Below, piece after piece: positions 1 to 64,000 of a stretch of 64,000 nucleotides of DNA. How positions within the stretch are numbered: the first letter of the stretch is position 1; every line of letters starts with the position of its first letter. A program made the position numbers and the translations under genes. Origin of the DNA: Peromyscus leucopus. Taxonomy: Eukaryota; Chordata; Mammalia; Rodentia; Cricetidae. Below the pieces are notes generated by a model. That model ran no database searches, was not told where the DNA came from, and saw only the letters and a list, made by a program, of their open reading frames with translations. The stretch spans positions 95,509,920 to 95,573,919 of the forward strand of contig NC_051083.1 of assembly GCF_004664715.2 (NCBI RefSeq), in the 5' to 3' direction.

Positions 1-343
1 TGCACATACGAACAAGGACAGTGGTAGAGCCAATAGAAACATGGGTTAATTAACATGTGATGGCCAAATATCACTGAGGAATACAAGGTTCGAGGAGCAC
101 AGACACACTCACCTATCAATTAGCTCTGTTTCCTTATTTATGCTGATCAGCGAGTTGGAGATATGAAATTATCTATACATTAGTTACAGAGTTCCGTGCC
201 AAAGTTAATGTCAAACGACTACATCTTCAGATGGCGCTTTCTCAAATGTCCATCCTATTTATGCTGCTTTCCCATTACTGAATCGGGTCATCATTTTTTT
301 GCTCGCATCCCACACACAAACACTCTCTACCTTTAAATGGAAG

Positions 344-512
344 AATGCAGGCACTTCTCTGAACATTTCACATTAATGCAACAACTATATATATCTAATA
401 TAACCGCTAGCGATGGCTGCCCTGCTGAGAGCATTGGCGTTAACAATGCCTCTTGTCCAAAAGATGAGTGAGCTCAGACACCAAGGGCATTGAGCACATG
501 ATCAGTTACTTG
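344..512 (-). CDS. ACSL4: ACSL4 exon 15, error-ridden copy
   Basis: The plus strand shows gcaggcacttctctgaacatttc, then gatggctgc, cttgtccaaaagatg, caccaag and gagcacatgatcag. These parallel the reverse complement expected for the exon encoding QSYVISFVVPNQKK through REAANAM. Boundaries are approximate. Only the terminal coding exon (KLERFEIPIK through MYGGK) is then missing, off the left edge. Confidence 0.5.
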
Positions 513-1209
513 CAATAAAGTTCAAACATATTACGAATAACCTATCCCTAAAGCCTCGCAGAGGGACCAGACACTAAATGTTAAAATTTTCCTGTTACAC
601 TATCATATTTTTCAGAGTTTAACACTACAATGTAGAAGCACAAAATGACCGAAGACTATTGAGTATAGAAAAAAAGAGAGAAATACTGACGCAGGTCACA
701 TAATCTACAAACAACGCAATCGCGGAGGTAACCTCCATCCCAAAATAACTCAAAAAACTAGATGACACAAAAAAAACACATCTGCGTAGCACAAATTTTT
801 ATCAATCCACAGAAATCACACTTCCTTGACATATGGTTTTACTACATTTCCGTTTTTTTAATCAAAGATCGAGCCTCAATGAGAGAGTAAATAATTCAAT
901 CAAAACCCAATCACCACGATAATCACCTCATGGTGATATGGTCTAAAAATAACTTGTATTACTTGATATAAACACACCTAGATATGCCTCAATTTTAAAA
1001 AAATAGATAATCACATTATGTATTCCACTGAAAGATGCATAAAATATTCATCTTTAACTTGATTAAAATTCTTCTATAGAAAACATACAATTTAAGTTAT
1101 TGTGCTCGAGTTCTATCTCACCAAAGACAAACATATGGAAAAACTGTGATAGTAATATGATGTTGTGGTTTGAGTATGTGTAGTAGTGGTCACGAGTTGT
1201 AACACTGGG

Positions 1210-1372
1210 CGGCTTTGCATTTAACATACATGTCGCACCAGTTGGTTCTTCCTTCCACTTGGTGGTCCCAGGATCAAAACTCGAGGCACATCAGGACTTG
1301 GCGACACATAGTGCACAATTAGACGGTAGGCTGCAGTCATCCATCTTACAACACCCTTCAGTTACCACCGTT
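1210..1372 (-). CDS. ACSL4: ACSL4 exon 14, error-ridden copy
   Basis: The plus strand shows ctttgcat, acatgtc, cagttggttcttc, ccactt, tcccaggat, aactc, acttg, ggctgcag, catccatc and accaccg in the order expected for the reverse complement of the exon encoding RWFCTGDIGEFHPDG through LIDNICAFAKS. That exon would carry the catalytic hinge region (TGD, DRKKD). The 127-residue open frame predicted on the plus strand here (1259-1642) is a chance product. Confidence 0.5.
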
Positions 1373-2002
1373 GTCTCTTTATTCTTGTACATTCGTACAC
1401 CCCAATATCGATGGTTAATGGGAGACTCTATAGTTACATTTAGTCTGAGCGACACAGCGAACGAAGACAACTCTACAATATCACCACTGAAAACCTATGG
1501 CCTAACCCAAGGAGCCATTCAAGGCTTACTCAGGCTACACAAAGACCCACTAAAGTACCCGACTCTTGTGGTACACACGGAGGGACGCTCAGAGAGAGAT
1601 TCAGAAACCAATCCGCAACATCATCAGAAGACCAATGCTTAAAGCCTTGGTTCTCTAAGTAAATCCATCAATGTGTCGGATTAGTAACACTAATCTAGAG
1701 GAGATCCTAGAGCTCAGAAGTTCTCCAGCCACAAAAACTTAAAGCACAGATCATAGTACCTCAAGAAAAGCCAAATGCATTCACAGCAAGGGAGAAGTGT
1801 ACGAGACGGATGGCCATGAGAAATGGAGAAATTTTGATCGAGGATTCCACACAACTTCATGAATACCCAGACAATTAAACTAAATTATCTGTGCAAGTAG
1901 TTGAAATTACGTACAATTCTATGTCTGCAGTAGTTCTGTTTGCAATGATTGTCGACATTAATTTAATAATCACCGTACACACATTAATACTATTTACTAT
2001 GA

Positions 2003-2165
2003 TGTTTCTCATTTTATTCCATGTGCTCACAGAGGGAAAAGTGGTGAGTAATATATCTTCTGTCTCCTAGCTCCTAATGTAAAAAGAAATCTCCAAGGAA
2101 TCCAACACACACGATTGGTAATTATCTGTTTCTGGGGTCTTCCCTCTCTAATGATGTTGCCCCTC
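2003..2165 (-). CDS. ACSL4: ACSL4 exon 13, error-ridden copy
   Basis: The plus strand shows in order tttctcatttta, ccatgtgctcacaga, taatatatcttctg, tgtaaaaag, atctccaagga, attggtaatta and tctgggg. These follow the reverse complement expected for the exon encoding GYTVHDKPNPRGEIVIGG through AEDYSVDENGQ, with insertions and some substitutions. Boundaries are approximate and no frame is open. The call depends on my recall of the ACSL4 coding sequence. Confidence 0.55.
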
Positions 2166-2751
2166 TTTATACATATTTTGCTAATATCAGCGTTTACGCG
2201 TACACAGTTACCCACTAGACGGGTCTTTACTATGAAATCTGCTCAGGGTCAAAAATCTTGTTAGCTCTTCCCTGTGACCTGACAAAAGAGCGGTCTTTTC
2301 GTTATGTCTCGATCTCAAGCACCAACACCACAACATAATCCACTTGAGAGTTACAAAAAAGGCGAAAGCTACAGCATTATAATCCCTATTTAGCACGAAA
2401 TTAGTAATCTTTTCCCCACTCATTGCCCAATACAAGAAAATAATACGCTACCCTAACTTAATCTAATCCAACACATATTTGTTGGTAGCTGACACATCGA
2501 GACATTTTCAAGCCCATATCCATATCTCTATCTAGGGAATAGAATGACAAAATTGGTTGGGTATGTACATTCCAATGGCATACCAAGCGAATCGCTTATT
2601 TGGTATGAGCTGGACAGATTCTCACTCAATGAAGAAGATCTAGAAAGTTCTCTACAGCACTCCACAGAAATCGTGGTTGCGAGCTGCATCTAGAGATCCC
2701 CTCATTAGTCACTGCGCACGATCGAGCTTGTAGATCAAAATCTTCATATTA

Positions 2752-2851
2752 CGTCTTTCCGTTTAGAGCCATTGTCGTGTTCAGCTTACAGACTGTTGTC
2801 ACAGCATGATAAAGAGGCAGCTCCCAACTCTTCAGTTAGTATAGTCAGTAA
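2752..2851 (-). CDS. ACSL4: ACSL4 exon 12, error-ridden copy
   Basis: On the minus strand an acceptor ctctacag is followed by TTACTGACTATACT, then AGAGTTGG, CCTCTT, TGCTGTGA, TAAGCT and TGGC. These are the ordered words expected for the exon encoding VTDYTTGRVGAPLICCE through KDWQE. About 100 nt stand where about 75 are expected, so most differences are inserted bases. No reading frame survives. The order and the splice acceptor make chance unlikely; see the findings for the interpretation as sequencing error. Confidence 0.75.
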
Positions 2852-3922
2852 CTGTAGAGATAAGGCCCAACCAACCATTACTAAACAATAGCTGCCCAAT
2901 TGTGCAACACCTGAGTCCAGCCTTAGATATCAATGCCAACCGAGTCCGAAAGAGCCACATGCTGAAGAGGCCACTCTTACGGCAAATGGCTACGCACCCT
3001 TAGCTGCAAAGCTCAGACACCTATACACCCTTTCGCCTTTAGAAGCGTGCTTGGACTCCCACATTTCCGCTCGAGTGCATTATGTCGGTGCCTTTTTGTC
3101 TGTGCGTTGTTATTCGATAGAGAAACTCAACATGTTACTCTTAACACAAATCTGCTACAATGAAGGACTGGTCACCAGTAACTGTGCATTAACTGAAATG
3201 CTCATGCAAAAGTACAAAGTGAGATGAGAGTATTTCGCTGCTTCTTCATCTCAGTCTTATGTTTGATTAATCTGCAGATGAATTGTCTTTAGTCTCCCAT
3301 TCTTGGGAAATAATGGCTGGCAGCAACCAGTCAACAAATAGATCGCATCCCTAGTAAATATGAAATTTACTACCAGTCGAGGTTAAGAACCAAACTCTGT
3401 CAAGAGAGAGATGACTGGTTTGCCTAGAGAGATTAAGACAGGTTGATTCAATCATAGCACCTCGATGAGCAGGAAATTCTGTCTTGTTTGTCTGAAGTGT
3501 TACCTCTTCCTGTGATGCGTGAATTAAGGATATGCTTAGAATCCAAAGTACATCCTCATGAAGATAGCCAGAGAGAGCGTGTTAGTTTATAGAGCTCTCT
3601 TCAATTAGCATCTGTCAGGCGGAGGGTGGGCTAGACGTGCCTAATAAAAGCAGAGGATGGACTAAAGGGCTGTCCTGTCATCTCAGAGCCAACTCAAGTA
3701 ATAAAGCGCAACCTGGTCAACCGATGGGAAGATCTGACTAAAGTTAAAGGCAGTAAACGTTGGAGGACTTCAAAGTTGACTAAGTGCTGGAATGATTTCA
3801 AAGACGTAATAATATTGATACAAACAAGAATTTAGCAGTAAGGTGACAGTGTGGAAAAAGGATATTAATTTTGGACATAACCAGAGTGAAGTGATAGTAA
3901 TCTCATTCAAAGAAAAGTTCCT

Positions 3923-4120
3923 AGGCTGCAGACATGGCTCAGATGTTAAGAGTCCTTGCTGTTCTTGCAGAGGACTGGATTTTAGCTCTGAGCACCAATC
4001 TCAGGAGGCTTACATACAAGCACCTGTAAATCTAGCCACAGGGCATCCAACATACTCTTCTGGTCTCTGTGCATGTTCCACTAACATGCTCTTGCACACA
4101 CACAAACACATGATTAAAAC
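3923..4120 (+). mobile_element. diverged B3-type SINE
   Basis: Has ggctgcagacatggctcag, a gctgttcttgcagaggac box and a gctcttgcacacacac tail, the B3 layout, with many substitutions. It is the first recognisable repeat after the low-fidelity block. Confidence 0.65.
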
Positions 4121-4139
4121 AGAAGTCATTTTGTACTTA

Positions 4140-4309
4140 GAATTTTTTTCATATGATTTTCATATATTTTTGATGATATTCTATTCCCTCCCCAACTCCT
4201 CCTCACCTCCCTATCCACCCAACTCCATAAAAACAACAAAAAATAAAAATTAAAACAAACAAAAATCACTAAGACAATCCCCCAAGAAATATGCGTGCGT
4301 GCGCGTATA

Positions 4310-4359
<50 letters not shown>

Positions 4360-4480
4360 TCCATTTTGTGTTGGCCAACTACTCATGGGCATGAGACGTG
4401 TCCTTGAGTGTAATACTCTATTGAATAAAAATTTTCCTTTTACTAGCTGACATCAATTCGGCTAATTCAGAACTCAGAGA
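4140..4480 (-). mobile_element. rodent L1 3'UTR fragment, reversed
   Basis: Contains the reversed Lx-type 3' end: cctcccaactcctcc-like tract, A-rich stretch, (AC)n, then tgttggccaactactcatgg and gagacgtgtccttgagtg. Confidence 0.65.
4315..4357. repeat. (AC)n microsatellite
   Basis: About 21 uninterrupted AC units, following a short gcgtgcgcgtatac alternating stretch, inside the reversed L1 3'UTR. Confidence 0.95.
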
Positions 4481-4542
4481 CTGGGACGCATATAACAGCT
4501 ACACAGGTTCAAACCAGGAAAAAAAAAGTATTCCTATAACCT

Positions 4543-4744
4543 CAGTGTTTCTCAACCTGGCATGATGTCGTGTGCTAAGGAGATATGTGGCAATATTTCG
4601 AATATGTTTCATTTTGACAGTGTGGGTGAGCAAGTTACTACTAGCAATATGACTGTTAACATCCTTCAGTGGACGAGAGAGAACGCAACAACAAAGAATT
4701 ATGTGGTTCAAAAATGTGAAGAGGGTCAAGGATGAGACACCCTG
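4543..4744 (+). mobile_element. MER5A-like hAT-Charlie DNA transposon relic
   Basis: Begins cagtgtttctcaacctgg, has a tgtggcaatatttcgaa segment, aacatcctt, then acaacaaagaattatgtgg, and ends near accctg. These are the terminal repeats and internal words of MER5A, old and diverged. Confidence 0.7.
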
Positions 4745-5030
4745 CCTTGGGGAATTGAAGGTAACAAAAGACAAAGCAAAAAAGAGGGATGTGAGAGGGA
4801 TACTTCATCCCAAGGTCACAAGTGTACACAGTGATTATTGAGATCATACGATCGTCAAACTTTCTATCTGTGTGCATGCCCACCGACTGGTGATGCTCTC
4901 AACTTGGACTAGAGAACCTTCTTTTTGCAGTGGGTAATGGTTAATTCAGAGAATCATAGCTGCTTAAAGCACCTAGTGTAAGTAGCCATGAGAACACAGC
5001 CATGGAGGAATCATCTATAACAGGGGGTCT

Positions 5031-6376: not shown

Positions 6377-6667
<291 letters not shown>

Positions 6668-6833: not shown

Positions 6834-7193
<360 letters not shown>

Positions 7194-7291
7194 CTAAAAC
7201 AAAATACAAATTTCATTTTAAAAAGACTCAGTGCAAGTATAAGATTTACTTTGGTTCAACATGCTAAGTTGATCTAAAATATTAAAAAACA

Positions 7292-7480
7292 GGGCTGGAG
7301 AGATGGCTCAGTGGTTAAGAGCACCGACTGCTCTTCCAGGTCCTGAGTTTGATTCCCAGCAACCACATGGTGGCTCACAACCACCTGCAATTAGATCTGG
7401 TGCCTTCTTCTGGCCTGCAAGGACACATGCAGACAGAACACTAAACATAATAAAAAAAAATAAACCTTTAAAAAAGGCTT
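7292..7480 (+). mobile_element. B2 SINE
   Basis: gggctggagagatggctcagtgg start with pol III box words, cagcaaccacatggtggctc core, and ataataaaaaaaaataaacc tail. Confidence 0.92.
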
Positions 7481-7585
7481 AAAAAATATTTTTAAAAAAC
7501 AAACAAACAAACAAATAACCCTTAGGTGATTAACAGACCCTCAACTGGTCAACGTGCAGAAAAGTCTGGAGTGTTCTGCTGTAAA

Positions 7586-7656
7586 TGAGATATAACCCCC
7601 CCCCTCCAGAGAGGGAGGGAGGGAGGGAGAGGGGGAGAGAGGGAGGGGGAGAAGAG
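7586..7656. repeat. C-run and (GGGA)n purine-rich tract
   Basis: ccccccccctcc followed by repeated gagggagggaggg units to gagggggagaag. Confidence 0.85.
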
Positions 7657-7781
7657 AACTCACAATGACTGTAACATGCCAAAGACCTATGCAAGATCAA
7701 GCCAAACAAAATACCACCACGGAGGCAGGGCACAAAATCCTACTAGCAGTGTAGAAAGTATTGGCCTTTGAGAGCTGCTGG

Positions 7782-7995
7782 AAGAGGGAGAGTCAGTTTT
7801 CTTTAACGGTGTGACCCTGGGTAAGTCAACCACACGGGCCCCATAAACTCGATAGTTTAAAACAACAACAACAAAGTGAATCTAAACTCAAGGTTGGGTT
7901 GGCAGGGAGACAAGAATACTGGAAGGAATTGGGGGAGGAGAGTGAGTATGATCAAAATGTACTGTATTATTCTCAAAGAACTTAATAAAATTTCG
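7782..7995 (+). mobile_element. L1 3' end, internally deleted
   Basis: gagggagagtcagttttc near the start and ggaattgggggaggag with atgatcaaaatgtactgtatt and aacttaataaaattt at the end, all characteristic of rodent L1 3'UTR; the middle is shortened. Confidence 0.65.
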
Positions 7996-9027
7996 TGTAA
8001 AAATCTTAGCACAGAAAGAATTCATTCATTCAGCTCTGATAGTTTTTTCAAAAAGTTATTTCAAATAAATTCCCTTATTTTCATATAGCAGCAAAATACG
8101 TAACTGTGTTGAATCAAATCATGATACTTTTCTCTTTATTACTATGACCATGGCAGGGGTCTTAACCATTTCCTAAAAATCGTATAAAGATTAAAAATAT
8201 AAACTTCTTGCTGGTAGTTACTTGATAAATTAGAAGTAGGGCAAGGTTTGGGCTAATATGTATAAGGCAAAAACAAACACCTCCATCACTAAGTGATGAT
8301 TTAAAAAACACTCAGCAAATTATTACAATAAAGCACAACTGTTCATAAATATCTGGTTCTAAATATTGAAGGCATCAGTCAGCAGTATGACTTACGTTGT
8401 GCTATAATAACTAAATTTATGGATGTTTCTTCCATTATTAAAGCCAAGCCACATACAAATGGAGGTCAGTAGAATCATTCCATAAAAGCTGCCAACATAG
8501 CGAAGCATGGTACACATAAAGCTGTCTTCTCCACTGCCACAAAAGGATTCACTACTATATCCCTGGTCTTTTTCTGATAAGTCTGCGACTGAGAACCCTC
8601 AGGGTTTTCCCTCAGGGAAACACTTTAACATACTAGAACACCCCCTTTATAAGCTCCAGGGCCCAAAAAATATGGACACAAAAGCAAACAGATGGGCAGG
8701 AGGTGTGGGAACCACTTCCATGGCTTCCTAATCGTGCCCACGGAAGGTCTTGGGACTCAGATGTGCAACAGTCACACAGTGGCAGGATTTATAGTTCGCT
8801 CATCAAACCACTTCCCATCTCAAGCGAACGAACGATATACCACGTTCCAGCCAGTTATCTGTACTTCCAAGCAGTGTCATATTCTGCATTCTCTTTGTAA
8901 ATATCTACAATGCTAAAGCTTACATCATCTAGGAATGCAACAAACTCAGAAAACAATCTCCCGGGGGGAGGGGGGAATCTAAATGAAGAGTTCTTTTAAA
9001 AAGCCCACCCATAGACGAACAAGAGGG

Positions 9028-9440
9028 GTCAGGATCATGATGGGAAAAACCAGAGACAGCTGACCCAAGCGAGTGGGAGCTCATGGACTCTGGGACCGCA
9101 ATAGGCCCTCTGAATGTGGGTGACAGTTGTATGGCTTGATGTGTTTGTGAGTCCCCTGGCAATGGGGCCAGGACTTATCCTGGGTCTAGGAACTGGCTTT
9201 TTAGAGCCTGTTCCCTATGGTGCAATGCCTTACTCGGCCTTGATGCAGGGGAAGGGGTTAGGTCCCGCCCCAACTTGGTATGCTAGCTTGTGTTGACTAC
9301 CCCAAGGCCTTACCCACTATGAAAAGGAGATGGCAGTGGGATGGGAGGGGGAGATGGAGGGGAACAGGAGAAGGGGAGGGAGGAGGAACAGGGTTTGGTA
9401 TGTGAAAAGAATGAAAAAATTTTTAAATAAAATTATTTTA
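9028..9440 (+). mobile_element. 5'-truncated L1 3'UTR insertion with target duplication
   Basis: Contains gctgacccaagcgagtggg, ccctctgaatgtgggtgac, a G-rich polypurine tract and an A/T-rich tail with aataaaa. It is flanked by an imperfect direct repeat of about 30 nt: ttttaaaaagcccacc at 8996 and at 9436. Confidence 0.8.
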
Positions 9441-10759
9441 AAAAAGCCCACCTATAGAGCAACAGGAGGATTTAAGGAAAGCAACCAGGTCTGATGTACC
9501 ACGGACTATTTACTATCCTTCAGTTTGAGGAACATAAGGAAGTATCACCGTCAATATGAACAAGGACAGCAGCCATGGAGAGGACCTGATACAACCAATG
9601 GGAAAGAGACGGTCCAACAAGTCCTGGACAGCTAGCTGATGAACTCATAGCCCAGTAGGAGGGAATAGGAAAAATAAACCTGTTAGGAGGGTCTTCAGTT
9701 GTCCTAATCCAAACAACAGTCACAGGGACTAAGGGAAGCCTAGATGAGTCTAGATGCATCTGTGATTTCCAGAGATCACGTGATCACGAGGGCTCTGAGC
9801 AAGCCAATGGTTTAAACCACTAATAGATTCAAGTTTTGACTATATTACTGGGAAACTGTGGTGCTTTGGAATCATTTCCTCATTTATCAAGCCCAAAGCC
9901 TCTCCATTCAGTTTGAAAACTTGGCAAATGCTACAGTACCTCTAAATAACAGGACAAAATCTTTTCGGGGCTACTCTAGCTCTAATAATTTTTGTAGAAA
10001 AAAATTTAAGGACAACAAAGTATTTCACATCTGTAATGCTTAGAAAATTTGGACTGAACAAAATATCATCTAAATCTCAGACTTTCCATGCACAAAAATA
10101 ACTTGTGAAGATACTAGGCTATGTCTGGAAGTTTGATTCTAACACAAGCAGTAGTAATAAACTCTCCCTGTGGTTTGCCAAGTGTAAGTAAATGTGCTAG
10201 AACATGACAGATTTATGCACATCTGAAACACTACATTAGACCTTTCAACTCATCGTTATATGGCTTTAGATGTAACATCTGTTCTTTTTAAAAGCAGCAT
10301 TTCGGTTAAAGATTTTACATCTATGAAATAGAACAGTACTCCTGTGGCAGCTTTTGGAAATTGGTAGATTTCTTTAGGAAGTACTTCCAGGAAGATGATA
10401 GGTCAGATGCTGCATCATGTGATGGAGTGAGTGAGAAGTGCTGCCTGTTAGTTAAGACTCAGCTCTGTCACCAACCTGTCCCAGAACCTCAGTTCTCTGG
10501 GATGACACAGGGCCTGATTGTTCTTAATTATAAGATTAAACGTAATGATCTAGGGAGTACATATCTACCTTAAGATATTAGGACCATGCCTCAATTCTAG
10601 GCACTTTGAAGGTCATTTTCATCTTGAATTTCCAAGCATCAGCAAATACTCACAGGTATACATTCCAGCCTTGTTACTTCTATGATTTTAAGGATTATCT
10701 ATGCCAATATTCCAAAGTAAAATTATGCTTCAAGTGTACACAAATACCTAAAAGAATTA

Positions 10760-12608
<1,849 letters not shown>

Positions 12609-12641
12609 CTATTGGTCATAAAGCTGAGGGAGCCTCTCTTA

Positions 12642-14315
<1,674 letters not shown>

Positions 14316-14454
14316 CGTTTTCTGGCTTGGATCCCAACTCTTCCACTGATTGCATGCTGTGAATCTCAAACCCTTCAGGGTACTCTGCTTTATTGATAGT
14401 CTTATTATCCACATAAATGATGTGTTTAACACAATTGATATCTAATAAAGCCGC
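14316..14454 (-). CDS. ACSL4: ACSL4 exon 6: residues 214-259
   Basis: The acceptor gttcaacag and donor GTAAGT bound 139 nt encoding [18 protein letters not shown] through [12 protein letters not shown], plus one base. The human equivalents I recall are TALLDISC and LGSNPEN, so this is among the more variable parts of the protein. Confidence 0.95.
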
Positions 14455-15100
14455 CTGTTGAACGGAAATAAAAGCCAGCTATTCAATTTGGCACACCATC
14501 AAAATTAATACTAAATGATAGGACTGAAAATATTTACTAAGTAAATTTCACTGTGGTAATTATAGACAAATTCCAAGTGCTCTAATATTGTAATCATATT
14601 AAATAAACCACCCACATCTTTAGGAAGAAACGTACTAAGACCAAAACATTTAAAAATAATAGCAACTATATTAAGATGCTAAGAGCCAGGCAATATAAAA
14701 ATATGTAAAACTCGATTAACAAAATTTTAAATGGAGCAGGAAAGGAGTACATGTATATTTTCCTTACTAGTGTATGTTCTCTTTTTGTTTCTTATCATTC
14801 TGATCATGTACCTGTCTCTTAAGATCTTAATGTAGCTTGTCACAAAATGCACCTCCATAAGCCCCATTATAACCACAAAGCAAAAACCAATGTTAGGCAA
14901 ACAAAAATAAAAAGCAAGGGCCCAAAATATATCAGTAGAGTGAAGCAGTTAACCACACACGGACTCGAAGGGAGAGAGATCAGACCTCACCCAAATTAGA
15001 AAACACGCCACAGAATAGCTGTAGTAACCTACCTTCTGATAGTTAAATGATTAACGTTAAAAGACAGAACTACTGAATGGATTATTACGATTACCTAGCT

Positions 15101-15242
15101 GGCCGGTGGTGGCACACACCTTTAATTTGAGCACTCGGGAGGCAGAGGCAGGCAGATTTCTGTGAATTCAAAGACAGCCTGGTTTACAGAGCTAGTTCCA
15201 AGATAGCCAAAGCTATCTATCTTGAAACCCTGGCTCGAAAAA
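15101..15242 (+). mobile_element. B1 SINE, diverged
   Basis: gctggccggtggtggcacacacc start, then gagcactcgggaggcagaggc and tgaaaccctggctcg. Confidence 0.88.
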
Positions 15243-15419
15243 TGAAATAAATAAATACATACTCCATGATAGACAATTAGATAGGACACAAAACAAGTTC
15301 CAACAAACTCTTAAAAGTTAAAAATATGTCAAGTATCTATTCTGACCATAGTACAATAATTAGTCATAAATTACACAAATATGAAAATTAAACTCAATGG
15401 GTCAATAAAAAAAAAATCA

Positions 15420-16810
15420 AAAAAGAAATTTAAAATTTTTCTGAAACAAATGAAAATAAAGACAAAATATTAAAACATATAGGATACAAAAGGTAATATA
15501 AAAAGTGAGGTTTATAGTAAATCAAATTCTAGATTAAAAATGGAAAAAGACTGCAATAAACCATCGAGCCTCAAAAACCTAGAAAATCAACAATAAATCA
15601 AACTCAAAAATCTAACAGAAAAGAAATAACAAAGAACTGAGCTAACTAAATAAATAGACTTCAATACAAAAGATGAAGGAGACCAAGATAGGGTTCTAAA
15701 ACGTTCAACAGGACCTGGGGAGATGGGCCAGGCTGGAAAAATGTTTCAGAACATTGAAGTGGAAAGGATTTTTTAATTGTTGCTGGTTTTGTTTAGTTTT
15801 TGGATAAATCCCCAAAGCAGAGAAAACAGAAAGAAAAGCAGACAAACAGCATTATGTGAAAGTAAAAAGTTTCTAACTAGTAAAGGAAACCATTATCAGA
15901 ATGAAGAGAACCTACAGGACAGGATAAAGTACTGCAAACCCTCCTGACACATGGTATACATCCAGAAACTCAGCAGCAAGTCAAAGAACCCAAGTGACAA
16001 CGGGCAAATAGCTACCTAAGCATTTCTCCAAAGATACACGGAAAACTCCTCAGCATCACTAGTCACCAGAGAAACGCAAATTGAAACCACATGAAATCTC
16101 ACCTATCTCCCAAGAGAAGAATGACTACCATCAAAAAGGGAAAGGGCCCTGGTAAGTCTGTGGAGAAAGGAGAATCCTTGCACCACACTGTTGATGAAAT
16201 TCTACATCAATATAGTCATTCTAAGGGAAAAAAAAGTACAGAAGGTTCTCCAAAACTTAAAAAAAAAATGAAATTACTATGTAACTACAACAATCTTACT
16301 ATCAGAAATCCTGAAGAAATGAAATCAGTATGTCAATGACATTTATGCTCTCATGTTCAGTTTCTTACTGTTCACAATAGCCAAGGAATGGATATAGCCT
16401 ATCAGCTGATGAATGGATAAAGAAGACATGTTACATATATACATTGGAATACTATTCGGCCATAAGAAGAACAAGAGCCTACCATTTGCAACAACTTGGT
16501 TGCAGCTAAAGATCATCACTGTAAGTAAAATAAGCCAGACACAGAAAAGCTAGGTAGCATATAATCTCATTCTTGTGAAATGTACGAAAACCTTATCAAG
16601 TGGAAGTTGAGGGTAGAATTGTAGTTCCCAGAGACTGGATAGAATGGGAGTGGTAAGATAGAGAAATTGATTAATGGATACTAAGTTACAGGTGGATATG
16701 GAGCAGGAAGATACGGTGTTACTGCACAGCAAGATGGCTACTGAGACTGTACCATGTATTTCAAAAAAACTAAAAGAAAGTATAGTCAATGTTTCCATCA
16801 TAAAAAAAAA
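15420..16810 (+). mobile_element. ancient L1 3' portion
   Basis: Words typical of the end of L1 ORF2 and its 3'UTR occur in order: catttctccaaagatacac, caccagagaaacgcaaat, tgttcacaatagccaagg, gatgaatggataaagaagac and gaatactattcggcc. The A-rich end is near 16801-16810. No open frame survives. Confidence 0.75.
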
Positions 16811-16929
16811 ATGAAAAAATGTTGACAGAAACATGTTTTAAGCTGATCTGAGCATTACATAGTGTAAACATGTATTGAAATAAGACATGGCACCACATAT
16901 ATACCACACACGTTTTCACACATTGGTTA

Positions 16930-17232
<303 letters not shown>

Positions 17233-17832
17233 TCAGTCTTACAAGTTCCCAGGAATCAAACTTTAAGGTCGACAGGTCCTGGGAGAAGTCAGGTCAGAGG
17301 GCAGCCCAGCAACGACTTCCCCTTCAGTGGTCATTGCCCAAAAGAATGGATAAGCCAATTTTCAAAACTGTTCAAGATCTCAAGTCAGAAGATGAGCCAC
17401 AAATAATGCCCTTACTCCTTTCCAGAAAGCTTTCTCAGTGTGTTCAATTTCTAATCCCATTGGTTATCTCCATCCCTTACCTGGGGAGGCTGGCAGATCC
17501 GTTCCAGAGGACTCGCCAGACTACAGCCTAAACTAACAGTAATATCAGTCGGAACTGAGTAGTAACATGTGCTAAACTTCGAACAGACATGGAGATTCAG
17601 CTTTCAGCTGATAACTAGAAATAGCCCATACATTCAGTAACAGGCACTTTTCACTATTGAAGGTGGGCGATTAAGAAGACAAAAATGGGAACATTTTTGT
17701 AGCATCTATCTTTGTTTGAAATGAAGGTTGATTCCCACACTTAACCTGCAGTACTCTATTTTCTGAAAGAAAAACCAAATACTTAGGGTGCAACAAGGCA
17801 TTCTTATGAACTCAATTTTTTTTTAAAATTAG

Positions 17833-18035
17833 TTCCTGAGATTGTAGAGGCTCTGTGGCTAGGAGACTTGCTTGCTGTTCTTGCAGAGAACAAGGGGTTG
17901 GTTCCCAGCATCCGCGTGGCTGCTCACACTCCTCAGTAATTCCGGTGCCAGGCCTCTGGGCATCAAGAATGCACAGGGTGCATTTACATACATGCCGGCA
18001 TATACTCATACATAAATTCAAATGAAAAATCTTGA
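17833..18035 (+). mobile_element. B3-type SINE, diverged
   Basis: ttgctgttcttgcagagaac, ggttcccagcatccgcgtggctgctcac, then gtgccaggcctctgggcatc, matching the B3 order. Confidence 0.75.
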
Positions 18036-18374
18036 AAAAATTACCTCTTGTACAATGGCAAAAACAAGTGCCTGCCAGCCAGAAACATGCCAAGTTTTCC
18101 TCATTTTCTGGTTCTCTAGTGCCAGGTCTAGCGGGCACAGGACTTTGTACGCAAAACGAAGGAAGTAAATATGAGGGTTCAAAGTGCAAGAGTGAACTCA
18201 GAATTTGTGGGCGATCACTTTTGTTGTACGGTCTCCAAAACCATACCTTCAATCTAAACTTTTAGGTTATAGTTCATGTCTAATTGAAAAATAAAATTAG
18301 GTCTCAAGTTCCCAAACTTAACTCTTAGAAGTTGCGATCCTTAATAGGAGCAATTGGATTATTCCTAATTTATT

Positions 18375-18660
18375 TATTTAGTGTGTGTGTGTGTGTACAT
18401 GGGCACAACGTTGAGTGTTGTTCCTTACTTCCACTTTGAGAAAGGGTCTCTCATGGGCTTTCGTTCTGCTGTCTATGCAGGCTAGCTGGCCCATGGGCTT
18501 CCAAGGATTCTCATGTCTCCACTTCCCATCTTGCCTTAGGAAAGCTGAGAGTGAAGACTTACGCTACCACTGCCAGCTTTATGTGAGTTCTCGGGATTTG
18601 AACTCAGGTCCTGCTAGCACAGCAAGTTCTTCATCCACCAAACCATCTTCCTAGTCCCTA
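18375..18660 (-). mobile_element. RSINE/B4-type SINE (reversed)
   Basis: Starts at a (GT)8 tract and ends gggatttgaactcaggtcctgc and caccaaaccatcttcctagtccc, the reversed tRNA-like head of a B4-type element. Confidence 0.6.
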
Positions 18661-18718
18661 GCCATGTTTTAGGGACATAATCACACAGAAAACTAGCTAA
18701 GGAACAACTTCTTTGTTT

Positions 18719-18740
18719 CGTGTGTGTGTGTGTGTGTGTT
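18719..18740. repeat. (GT)n short tract
   Basis: About ten GT units. Confidence 0.9.
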
Positions 18741-18819
18741 GCGAATGTAATTATTTTTTTTCACTGCTGAGGAACAACTCGATGATCTCAAGTATGCTAT
18801 AAAAACGCTTTCCCCACAT

Positions 18820-19215
18820 GAACTATGAACCAAAGGCTGAGGGGCTCCCAGCTGGATCAGGCCCTCTGAATAGGTGAGACAGTTGATTGGCTTGATCTGT
18901 TTGGGAGGCATCTAGGAAGTGGGACCGAGTCCTGTGCTCATTGCATGAGTTGGCTGTTTGAAACCTGGAGCTTATGCAGGGACACTTGGCTCAGTCTGGG
19001 AGGAGGGGACTGGACCTGCCTGGACTGAGTCTACCAAGTTGATCACAGTCCTCGGGGGAGGACTTGTCCTGGAAGAGGTGGGAATGGAGGGTGGGCTGGG
19101 GTAAGGGGAGGGGGTGGGAGGGGGGAGAATAGGGGAACCCATGGCTGATATGTAGAACTGAATGGTATTGTAAAATAAAAAATATATATCACAAAAAAAA
19201 AAAAAAAAAAAAAAA
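18820..19215 (+). mobile_element. L1 3'UTR, 5'-truncated, with A-tail
   Basis: ccctctgaataggtgagac, a long G-rich polypurine tract (19075-19135), gctgatatgtagaactg and an A23 tail at about 19193-19215. Confidence 0.85.
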
Positions 19216-19314
19216 CGCTTTCCCAATGAGTTATGCTATCAGCCTACTTTGAAAACAGAAGCGTCTCAGAACACCCTTCCCTGGGATCCCCTGGGAAAAT
19301 CCATACAAAAATCA

Positions 19315-20469
<1,155 letters not shown>

Positions 20470-21942: not shown

Positions 21943-23090
21943 CAACATTTCTTTCTTGCAACAGAGATGTTTTGTACTCCTTGATAAGCCTTAAGTCAGT
22001 CATAGACAAGCTAGCCACATGCATAATTTTTAAAAATAAGTTCTTAATGGATGTATAAAAAAAGTACAAAAGAGAACTAATTTGAAAAAAACAACTTGAG
22101 TATATACATTTTCAGGGACAATAGTTGAAGACAAAAATTTATACAATGTCCCTAAGGGACAGTACCACTTCAGTCTCAAATACGGAATTGTCAAACTTAG
22201 GGCAGCAAATTCAAAGAAATAGAAAGTAGCCTTTGAGTCACTTCTAATTTATTTAGCTATAAATTGATTATATGTTTTTAATCATTTGTAATACTAGTCA
22301 TATATCTAAAATGTCTTATATATACTGGCTTCAGTGCTTCGTACAGAGATACAGATAAATACTCTGCTCCTGTACTAGGGGAAAACGGAACTGTTATCTA
22401 CAACCCAGATAATGAGCACACGTGACTGAGCTAGGTCTAGCCCCGGCCTCTACTATCAATGTGACTTGAAACAGGGAAAAGCTGGCAGAGCTCTGTAGCA
22501 GCACCTTTCATCTGGAAAACAGAAGGACTATCTATCGGAGTTCCCGACTCCACAGTTTCCTTGGAGGAACCCTTTGTCTTCCCGACTTCACTCTGTGAGC
22601 AATCCGAATGGCCCCTGCCCTACTCCCTCGGCACTCCTGTCGCTCACTCGGCCGCTCTCCTGACTCAGCTAAATCACATGCTAATCTCCAGCCATGCCCA
22701 CGCGGCTTCATGTGCAGGAACACATTATCGTGCTGACCGCCTTCCTTGAGGACACACGGAAACCCTACACTGAACGAGTGTCCCCACTATATCACTCTCA
22801 AACTGGCTGCCTCATCTGCAGACCACCACGGACTCCTCTACATCCTCACCCTCGCTTGCTGTCCTGAGTTATTCGCTATGGACTCACCTCCATGTGTCGC
22901 CGGCCATATGCATCTCCCTTCTATGCCAGGACGAACCATCGATGTTCCCATCCCTCTATCTGACATCCTGCCTTGGTCTCCATGTGGACCCGGGGGTAGT
23001 GCTCCGCCCACTCTTGCTCTACAGCATCACTGCCATGGGCATTCCTCTAACACCCTAGCATTTATTTCACCTTAAAACCCATTCCTTCTG

Positions 23091-23243
23091 GCCGGGCGGT
23101 GGTGGCGCACGCCTTTAATCCCAGCACTCAGGAGGCAGAGGCAGGCAGATCTCTGTGAGTTTGAGGCCAGCCTGGGCTACCAAGTGAGTTCCAGGAAAAA
23201 GGCGCAAAGCTACACAGAGAAACCTTGTCTCGAAAAACCAAAA
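23091..23243 (+). mobile_element. B1 SINE with target duplication
   Basis: ggccgggcggtggtggcgcacgcc start, full length, CpG-rich (young). Flanked by cattccttct at 23081-23090 and 23244-23253. Confidence 0.95.
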
Positions 23244-23253
23244 CATTCCTTCT

Positions 23254-24295
23254 CTTGTACCCAACGCTCAGATCTACTCCATTTCTTCTCTAAAAAAGAG
23301 CGGTCTGTCCCCCACTTCCCATATTTGTTTCCTCTGCTACCCACTATCCAAGGGTCTTTGTCGCCCACCACACATCACAAGTGCTCTCTGATCGGTAGCA
23401 CCAATGACCTCCACACTATTAGACCCAAAGGTCAATTAAAGCTCTGTCGCCATCTTCCTCTGCCAGTTAGCCTTTGAAACAGCTGGTTCCTTTCTCACCT
23501 GAAATTCACCCCCAAGACACCAGAGTTCAATTTTCTTCCTAGCCCCTGCATTGCCAGCCTTCCTGACTTCTTCCTCGTTTCCCTGATCCCACAGCACTGC
23601 AGCGTTCAATCCACTGATTGCTTCCCTATCTACACTCATGCCTGCGCCAGTCTCATTTAGTCTCACGGATGGAAATATCACATAGGGTGATGATTCCCAA
23701 ATAAGCCCGAGAGTCTCCCCTAAACTTCACATCGTTTCCTCCATGGCTAGAAGTAGACGTCAATTAAGTACCTGAATTTTAGCCTGTTTAAAGCATAGCC
23801 ACTGATCCTTCTACAACTGTATTGTACCCAGCCTTGCCTCTTGTATATGCCCTGATCCTCGAGTTTCTGAGTTCATCTCCTACTGTGCCCTCCCCTGGCA
23901 CAGCTCTAGTCCCATGTGCTCATTACAGCTTGGGGGTACACTATGCTGTGACTCAGAGCTGTTGCATGTATTATTATTCTTTCTGCCCGAATTCTTCTCC
24001 TAAGATAGCCATGTATGCTATTTTTTGCCTACTTTCTATATTTAATCAAGTAACGTCATATCCCCAGTTAGATTTTCTCTAGCCACCCTATTTAAAACTA
24101 CTCTTGCAACACTCGCTTTCTCACTTTATTTTTCTCCTCCCCCCCTTTCACTAATATACTACCGGGTCCTATTTTTCACGTTTATTGTCTGTGTCTCCAT
24201 TAGAATCATGAGGAGGCAGTTGGCTGCGGAAACCTTACCCAAACAGCGGAGTACCTCCATGTGTCCACTGTTCAATAAATGTACTGAATAAGAAC
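23254..24295 (+). mobile_element. L2/CR1-clade LINE relic
   Basis: Pyrimidine-rich sequence with caccaatgacctccacac, gatgattcccaaataagcc, ctcactttatttttctcc, cgtttattgtctgtgtctcc and ttcaataaatgtactgaat, the order seen in the ORF2 end and 3'UTR of L2. It is highly diverged and interrupted upstream by the B1; the pyrimidine-rich stretch 22560-23080 may belong to the same element. Confidence 0.55.
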
Positions 24296-42861: not shown

Positions 42862-43025
42862 TAGGGGCTGGAGAGGTGGCTCAGTGGTTAAGAGCACTGA
42901 CTGCTCTTCCAGAGGACCTGGGTTCAATTCCCAGCACCCACATGGCAGCTCACAACTGTCTGTAACCCTCACACACACATGCAGGCAAAACACTGATGCA
43001 AACAAAATAAAATAAATTAAAAAAA
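42862..43025 (+). mobile_element. B2/B3-type SINE, shortened
   Basis: ggggctggagaggtggctcag start, cagcacccacatggcagctcac, then a direct jump to the cacacacatgcaggcaaaac tail. Confidence 0.9.
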
Positions 43026-61200: not shown

Positions 61201-63265
61201 TCTGTATATGCTTTTAAAGTTACTAGCCAATTACAATTGTACATCCTCCTCCAAGTGTCTAATGGCCATGAATGTCTAAAACTCAGTGTGGTACCCATAC
61301 TTTTCATCTGCCTATGGAAGTTAACCTAACATTTGTGAAACTGCTTCGGAAATTATGAACTACATGCAGTAACTCATTAAGTCAGGATGAATTAAGAACT
61401 AAGCATAACTTGCTATGCAGACCTTTGAGAAAATGTTTTAAACTGATGTAACAAGATTCAGCCACAGCTTTAATGTGAACTACATTAAAATACATATAGA
61501 TTCATAAAAATCTCATTATTTTCATAGTACAAAATCCAACACGAGGGATTTATGAATCATCTTGGAAACTGTAGATTCATTTTAATTTATATATGTGAAA
61601 ACTAAGAAAAGTGCCTTGTTCAGGGTTGATATAGCTAGATACAGCTGAGGCTAAAATCTGAAACTCTCCAGAGTCTGGATTCAGGTCTCTTGGCAACTAA
61701 TTGGACAAGATTCTTTGTTCTTTCTCCACCCATCACATCCCTACAAAACTGGGTAACAAAAATTCTATATTTGATCTAGTTTTAAGAATATTTATTTTAA
61801 AGAAGCTACAAAGCTGAAATCACTCAAACTTTTAAATCAGCACATTAAACGCTTCTGGGATTTTTTTTTTTATGTCAAGGTCCTTTATCTCAATTTGCAA
61901 GTATAACAGCCAATATAATGCTGGTTCCTCCATGGAAGTGGCAGAGAAGGGCCATTTGAACAGAAGTCTAGCTTGTTTTCCACTTTTGCAGATTCAGCTG
62001 AAAAGATGAGCTAGTTTGCAATTTAAGGGAGGCCTTACATTTAAATTTTTGCTTGACATGCTCAGTAGCAGCACTGTAATTGATATCCACTTGCTGATTT
62101 ATATATCGAGAACATGTGGAATCCTGGCTTGTTGGAAGTGAAAGAAGAAAAACTAAAGTTAAAGCAAGTGCAGGAAACTGCTTTCTTAGGTTGAATTAGC
62201 AATGCGTTAATAAGCATGAATTTAGAGGTCCAAGAAACAAAACACGAGAAGGAACCTCGGTTATGCTTGAATCCAACTGCATGACAGCTGGACATATTTT
62301 CACAGAAGAGGAAACTGAGTGGTTGATTAAACCATTAACCAGTAAAGCAAAGGGCTTACTTCTTCAGCGAGGTTCATTTCCCCTTATTCCGACTCTTAAC
62401 GTCGTTTCTCTAAGTGAAGATTGACTTTTAGGATGAAAAGTACAAAGGAGCAAATTAATTTCAAGAGAATTAAAAATAAATGTCTTCGAAGGAGATGCTG
62501 GAGTAAAACGGAGAAATGACGTCTGATTTCAAATATGTAACCAGTTAGGCAATGAATCACATTCTCCTAGGTTTTTCTGTCTATAGACATCAGCCACAGT
62601 TCTTCTCGGTACTCGAATGAGAGGAAGAGGAAGTGAATAAACCTTATATTAAATATACCTACTGAACGCGGGGATGAAGACGGGAAGAACACACCATGCA
62701 CGCTTCAGCTAGGATCCAGCTGTTTGCTAACATACCTAAAGGTATGGATGCTGAGAGGTTATCTATCGAAACCTAAGGTTCCCCCGCCTCAAATGCGAGA
62801 GGGCAGATGTTTCTGGAGCCAAAGAGACATCCCCCCCCCCCCCCGCGCGCGCCCGGACCCTGTTACAGAGTGACTGGGAGGGGACAAAATGGAGCGGAGG
62901 TCTAGGGGCGCCCTAAAGGTCGTTTGGAGGTCTAGCAGGCACTTTGTGTGCTCTTATCAACTGAGTCATGGCAAAGCCCTGTACCCCCGGGAGGAAGAGT
63001 TCTCATGGCCCTCGGGTACAGGGAGCTGCAGGGAAGAACCAGGCGGGTTTCTGGAGGATCCCGGAGCGCATCCAAAGAGATAGCTACAGCGGTTATCTCC
63101 CCAGAAGCCCAGGTGCTCCAGGAGCCAGCGGCCACTCCCGAGAAGCCGAGCGCCCCCCTGACCTCCAGCCGGCTCAGGTGAACAACGCGGAGCCCGACAG
63201 GGATAGGGGGGCCCTCCCGGGCACCGACCCAGCGGCCGCAGCCTCCCCAGTCTAGGATCACTCAC

Positions 63266-63480
63266 CAAAGGTTGCTGCCTGGTCCACCACGTCTCCGCCG
63301 CTCGGTCCGGCCTTAAGGGGAAGGAAGCTCACGGAGAGCACCCGCGTGCCCGCTAGCTCCAGAGCTGCCGTGCAAGGAGGGGCGCGCCGCGGAGGGCAGT
63401 GGAAAAAAAAAAAAAAGCCGCAGCGGCGCGCGCGCAACCCGGACGGCCAGCGGAGGCGGGGCGCAGCGCGAGCCCGGAAA
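63266..63480 (-). other. ACSL4: ACSL4 exon 1 (5'UTR; donor certain, 5' end estimated)
   Basis: On the minus strand the sequence ends CAACCTTTG at 63266 and is followed by the strong donor GTGAGT (63265-63260). It lies inside the CpG island and has no start codon in frame with the protein, so it is taken as the non-coding first exon. A T14 run (minus strand) lies at about 63402-63415. The upstream limit is a guess; only the donor position is well supported. Confidence 0.65.
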
Positions 63481-63593
63481 AGACGCGCCTGGAGGGGCGG
63501 GCGGAGTGGGGGCGCGCGGTGGTGTGGCTGAGCCCGCCGAATCGCAGGCGGCCGCCGGCTCGGCCCACCCACGCGCCCGCCTCCGTTCGCGAA

Positions 63594-63603
63594 GGACGTC
63601 ACC
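63594..63603 (-). promoter_or_regulatory. ACSL4: CRE-like site in the ACSL4 promoter
   Basis: On the minus strand this reads GGTGACGTCC, containing the TGACGTC core of a cAMP response element. It sits in the CpG island upstream of, or close to, the inferred transcription start. A CREB/ATF role is inferred from the motif alone. Confidence 0.45.
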
Positions 63604-64000
63604 GGCAAAGAGGAGGAGCCCGGTGGGGCTCGCGGCTGCTGCAAAGGAGGGCTGCTACCAAGGGGTCGCGAGTCGCTAAAGGCTCCCTAGAGCCCATTGC
63701 CACAATGCTGGTCCCGCAGTGCTGGGCTGGGCTGCCCGCGAGGGCTTGGCGCCCGACGGCGGAGAGCTGCAGAACTGGCACACGCCCTAGCGGGCTTCCC
63801 AGGACTCCACCCAGGATGAAAGTTCCCCCGAGGTCATCTTCCAGCTGCCCTAGTAGATACCTATCTTTTGATTGCCTCGTGCTTCGTATAGGAGAGATCT
63901 TAACCCAGTTTGCTGGCTTCGAGCTCCTGTAAGCCTGAGCCAAAGCTACCCATCCTTTTATCTTACCTTGAGTCGTGTTAAGATTCTTGCTCCCTCGGGC

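Follow-up and report, generated by a model that had tools for sequence, protein, structure and literature searches.

The closest described setting for the sequence reported here is gap filling with PacBio reads, by PBJelly and by later gap closers. The PBJelly authors put PacBio error at about 15%, skewed to insertions, and simulated a PacBio RS profile of 9% insertions, 4% deletions, and 2% mismatches; in the portion of that paper available to us, gap-fill similarity had a mean of 91.7% over 45 gaps and was 67.8–76% in the four worst rows shown (PMC3504050). In the available portion of the DENTIST paper, other gap closers inserted sequence of 81.5–97.3% mean identity when run on data sets simulated for Drosophila, Arabidopsis, and hummingbird (PMC8848313). 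A cricetid assembly with thin PacBio gap filling exists as well: the accessible text on the cactus mouse (Peromyscus eremicus) describes PBJelly gap filling with about 5× PacBio data, followed by Pilon (PMC7204510), and is taken as a precedent only. The literature search returned general precedents of this kind and nothing on the ACSL4 locus described below.

The window, i.e., the whole stretch of 64,000 nucleotides that was analyzed, carries ACSL4 on its minus strand and starts with a corrupted block (1–3820), which reaches the left window edge and shows random-insertion noise in exon and intron. The block is like PacBio gap filling in that insertion-skewed error is confined beside accurate sequence, and unlike it in two respects: its insertion load is higher than in the published figures available to us, and it has fewer deletions than the assumed 9:4 ratio would give. 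As far as the excerpts of those papers go, published gap fills mostly have higher identity than the block, where 65/86 alignment columns were identical in exon 12 and 156/258 in the next exon. We are confident that the sequence from 1 to about 3820 is assembly filler from error-prone long reads, lying over an ordinary and very probably intact 3′ part of ACSL4.

Upstream of the block, the gene is clean. In tblastn, residues 1–438 (short-isoform numbering) were covered by a database protein (P0002; 711 residues, from a cluster that bears the name of Myodes glareolus) in eight pieces from 20166 down to 6470, one of which bridges an intron, giving nine clean coding exons. A human ACSL4 protein gave the same coverage, minus residues 219–220. 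P0002 was nearer to the window protein than the Otolemur garnettii protein (P0001), with 476 vs 464 residues in common over the eight pieces; the pieces of the Apodemus speciosus protein (P0005) differed in extent. Coding exons 3–10, seen by tblastn and as open reading frames, occupy 6834–20289 (−) and encode residues 1–381 of the short isoform plus the long-isoform N-terminus. Exon 11 (6469–6640, −; residues 382–438) is the last one before the block, has its donor GT at 6468–6467, and aligned to a human exon with 155 matches, 14 mismatches, and no indels. Exons 3–11, which the sequence-only reading had called perfect, were thus open, ordered, and on one strand. The long-isoform N-terminus is encoded immediately upstream of the short-isoform start (20289–20166), and this piece was identical to P0002 residues 1–118 at 116/118 positions. 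At the other end of the window, 62001–64000 has a GC content of 0.55 and a CpG observed/expected ratio (o/e) of 0.78, and is probably the promoter CpG island of ACSL4, marking the 5′ end of this minus-strand gene. In a whole-protein PDB query, the 60 matches listed out of 199 were other adenylating enzymes. No match was obtained for a 47-residue query in PDB, for two window ORFs in Pfam, or for an ACSL4 query against viral contigs.

Exon 12 was found inside the block at 2768–2851 (−; residues 439–462), next to a normal acceptor (AG at 2853–2852), which agrees with the earlier placement at about 2.85 kb beside a plausible acceptor. The codon split between exons 11 and 12 was read directly and is in phase. 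On the gene strand, the first 14 bases of the exon are exact, and extra bases build up afterwards; over 70 reference bases of a human cDNA, the alignment had 65 matches, 4 mismatches, 16 insertions, and 1 deletion. With P0002 residues only as the reference, the exon scored 60.4 bits, which was reached by none of 100 dinucleotide shuffles (maximum 32.1) and none of 28 length-matched pieces of real genomic sequence (best 33.2), and the search on the plus strand gave 20.0 bits. Exon 12 was also the sole segment above every shuffle in a 30-residue scan, and it was recovered by spliced alignment of residues 439–670 at moderate gap costs. Two further fragments from the spliced alignment, 1064–1051 (14 bases) and 460–449 (12 bases), were taken as chance.

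The next ACSL4 exon emerged only once insertions were made cheap in the alignment. It lies at 686–962 (−; residues about 465–530) with 80 insertions and 0–1 deletion, and its firm part is 942–686 (residues 471–530). With the human cDNA, this part scored 64.9 bits, whereas the best of 100 shuffles reached 35.0 and the plus strand 25.0; with P0002 residues alone, it scored 41.5 bits, a value attained neither by 100 shuffles (best 33.7) nor by the 28 genomic pieces (best 35.8). Of three alignment settings, one (insertion −2.2, deletion −3.5, mismatch 0.2) gave 37.1 bits, with 1–2 of 100 shuffles higher depending on reference length, and at the two others the score was reached by 0/100 shuffles. 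Codon-permuted references (0/40) reached the score of neither exon, and neither score was attained on the opposite strand. In the 30-residue scan, 736–694 gave a hint of the same exon, with 2/100 shuffles as good. Both exons are in the expected order and strand and contiguous with the clean gene, and with the P0002 reference both stand above all 100 shuffles in a gapped comparison of the kind that had been proposed as a check.

Four damaged exons (12–15) had been proposed for the block, and two exons are supported, exon 12 and the one at 962–686; the other placements were near chance. For exon 13 at 2.1 kb, the best score was 26.5 bits (14/100 shuffles as good), for exon 14 at 1.3 kb 29.2 bits (2/100), and for exon 15 at 0.4 kb 23.1 bits (46/100). 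The strongest candidate among these placements (1495–1469, at 1.3 kb) outscored each of 60 shuffles with two of the three overlapping segments tried; in other runs, it was reached by 2–5 of 40 shuffles, and by 15/100 with a residue-only reference. It was rejected, being 27 bases long and covering the same residues as the 942–686 alignment. Residues 531–670 were undetectable in 1–3900; when 1–690 was searched for them, 62–191 of 200 shuffles were as good in 20 combinations of setting and segment. These residues are presumably encoded to the left of the window.

Corruption of the block was also visible in reference-free composition. Mammalian DNA is CpG-depleted. In 1–3100, the CpG o/e stood at 0.63 and dinucleotide mutual information (MI) at 0.009 bits. 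The 108 overlapping windows of the same size taken between 4900 and 62000 spanned 0.15–0.41 and 0.024–0.060 bits; the CpG-rich 62–64 kb end (0.78) was excluded from this comparison. CpG depletion and dinucleotide structure are thus largely erased in 1–3100, and both are back at about 3820. Since the signal is lost across a region that is mostly intron, the introns are corrupted too, and the claim that both exon and flanking intron are affected holds: the random change is independent of function. Composition measures how much random change there was but does not tell its kind, because differing error mixes produced nearly equal values. Simulated insertions, deletions, and substitutions of 20/8/4% on clean window sequence gave a CpG o/e of 0.66 and an MI of 0.009, and mixes of 10/10/10% or 5/10/15% gave nearly the same. 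The loss in 1–3100 equals a simulated total error of about 30%; the error type can be read only from the two exons.

A third-order Markov comparison of clean with artificially noised sequence favored noise in 1–3100 by 0.0211 bits per base, the highest of 106 other windows reaching 0.0070. The change-point was placed at 3821, and at 3819–3820 under three noise settings, where the block joins accurate sequence and close to the end at 3800 given earlier. Positions within 3 bits of the best right edge were 3708–3969 under the middle noise model, 3637–3925 under the strongest, and 3708–4998 under the mildest. The adjoining 3901–4900 holds what we take to be an old, diverged B2-like element and other repeat-like sequence, which may blur the edge under the mildest model. 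Within it, 4251–4750 has raised CpG (o/e 0.57), partly from a simple repeat. The Markov test is less specific at the 500-base scale, where 22501–23000 scored 30.8 bits, above any piece of the block (maximum 21.7). This piece belongs to a CpG-rich stretch at 22250–23700 (o/e 0.46 in 22001–24000) that is noise-like in the Markov test and is probably genuine sequence with retained CpG; it may instead be a second patch beside a SINE, the latter being presumably a well-preserved B1-like copy at about 23090–23240.

No repeat had been recognizable in the block from the letters alone, and none was recognized when the corrupted sequence was compared with the remainder of the window: 25 pieces of 300 bases in 1–3900 scored at most 39.6 bits, against a shuffled maximum of 39.2, and 4/9 clean blocks exceeded 45 bits. 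A 26th piece was dropped for overlapping the target. When five clean blocks were artificially corrupted, 3/5 stayed above 39.6 bits at 29% insertions and 5/5 at 15%. The absence of recognizable repeats is therefore weak evidence, because the repeat signal fell below 39.6 in some of the corrupted clean blocks. Elsewhere in the window, the B1 and B2 repeats look cricetid, as far as we can judge, and 42876–42935 gave an Rfam tRNA match (33.2 bits; gathering threshold 29) that is perhaps a tRNA-derived SINE. No self-palindrome of the kind left by a missed adapter was seen in 13 blocks (best 35.3 vs 35.0 in shuffles).

The error profile was fitted on both exons with a pair-HMM by expectation-maximization. 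Per reference base, this yielded 0.41 insertions, 0.027 deletions, and 0.125 substitutions; in the shorter fit against which simulations were compared, the three rates were 0.41, 0.032, and 0.120. The insertion:deletion ratio over both exons was 13–15:1. Since the same procedure on clean exon 11 gave 0 insertions, 0 deletions, and 0.083 substitutions, most of the substitutions are probably human–rodent divergence. The insertion load is uneven: exon 12 (0.24 insertions per base) is nearly clean at its start and dense towards its 3′ end, and the next exon (0.46–0.47) is loaded about twice as heavily. The inserted base matched a neighbor in 28% of cases; simulated random insertion gave 24–26% and copied bases 50%.

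Such insertion-dominated error is what an uncorrected PacBio CLR gap fill would show. The filler would have been put into a gap or a contig end of a rodent assembly, and would derive from single-molecule long reads with a high error rate, most likely PacBio CLR, for which an accurate consensus was never reached. The DNA beneath it would be the end of intron 11, exon 12, intron 12, exon 13, and the start of intron 13, and ACSL4 would very probably be intact in the animal. We infer the assembly origin, the long-read origin, and PacBio rather than nanopore as the source. The idea of an uncorrected-read patch is borne out as to insertion-dominated noise that hits exon and intron alike beside clean sequence; the insertion load and ratio exceed the assumed PacBio profile. 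Compared with the 9% assumed for PacBio RS, insertions are about 2.6 to 5 times as frequent. The block does not fit an average CLR read (9/4/2%), and the excess calls either for an atypical read or for a consensus step in which insertions are retained.

These two forms were compared with the block in simulations (12 runs per model, fitted like-for-like). The first would be one very bad long read, or just a low-quality part of a long read, pasted unchanged, and we regard it as quite possible, short of an even chance. The uneven load along the two exons speaks for it, and an insertion-heavy read (per step about 29% insertions, with 6% deletions and 3% substitutions) gave insertions of 0.41 with deletions of 0.058 (sd 0.018), which is fairly close to the 0.032 observed. 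A read with ordinary proportions fits less well: scaled in 9:4:2 proportions, it gave insertions of 0.41 with deletions of 0.133 (sd 0.036), 0/12 simulations being at or below 0.027, and a plain 9/4/2 read had similar deletions (0.044) but insertions of only 0.09. The second form would make the block a distinct artefact class, a union consensus that keeps nearly all the extra bases of its reads, so that the sequence grows by about one third and deletions nearly vanish; it is conceivable, if rather doubtful. The simulated union of four ordinary reads gave insertions of 0.40 and deletions of 0.005 (sd 0.006). Neither the union nor the insertion-heavy read is favored, because the observed deletion rate lies midway between the two.

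Filler from nanopore reads would be a variant of the same artefact, since they are likewise an error-prone long-read type used for gap closing, according to the part of the source at hand (PMC7476103). The inserted bases in the block are mostly not neighbor copies, and insertions are 13–15 fold above deletions. Raw nanopore error, by contrast, is dominated by deletions and homopolymers, which makes this source improbable.

Real decay of the ACSL4 3′ part, by pseudogenization or as a degenerate duplicate, would account for the stops in all three reading frames of both exon intervals and for the undetectable residues after 530, and we give it almost no credence. Simulated decay gave insertions of 0.03, deletions of 0.055, and substitutions of 0.35, against 0.41, 0.03, and 0.12 observed; introns are changed too, CpG is restored and not lost, and the nine upstream exons are open. 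Neither substitution-dominated change, nor deletions equal to or above insertions, nor normal composition of the flanking intron, as expected of a pseudogene, was found, and the earlier view of an artefact instead of selective decay is supported by the insertion excess, the changed intron, and the restored CpG. That 1–3800 is unrelated sequence with a chance resemblance, the ACSL4 exons lying elsewhere, would suit the weak repeat test and the one alignment setting at which a few shuffles reached the next-exon score, but is hardly credible when no shuffle and no genomic piece reached either exon score with the database reference and the noise is visible independently in composition.

Read as long-read filler, the block is a strong example of an already known artefact and no biological feature. 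As in false gene truncation by residual long-read indels, an annotator would probably report ACSL4 here as truncated or as a pseudogene. In those cases the indels are scattered and single, whereas in the block they are very dense, probably too dense for short reads to be mapped and used in polishing. Genome users have here a concrete case of seeming gene truncation that most likely reflects an assembly error, and the case suggests that CpG and dinucleotide statistics over about 3 kb can flag blocks of this kind without a reference. Should the union class be true and recur in the assembly, truncation or loss could be called wrongly for many genes; the class would then be findable in any vertebrate assembly, reference-free, by local CpG restoration and loss of dinucleotide structure. 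Gene-loss surveys using this assembly should mask such blocks. For the biology of the animal, the finding carries little weight: the lipid enzyme ACSL4, which is central to ferroptosis, has very probably not been lost.
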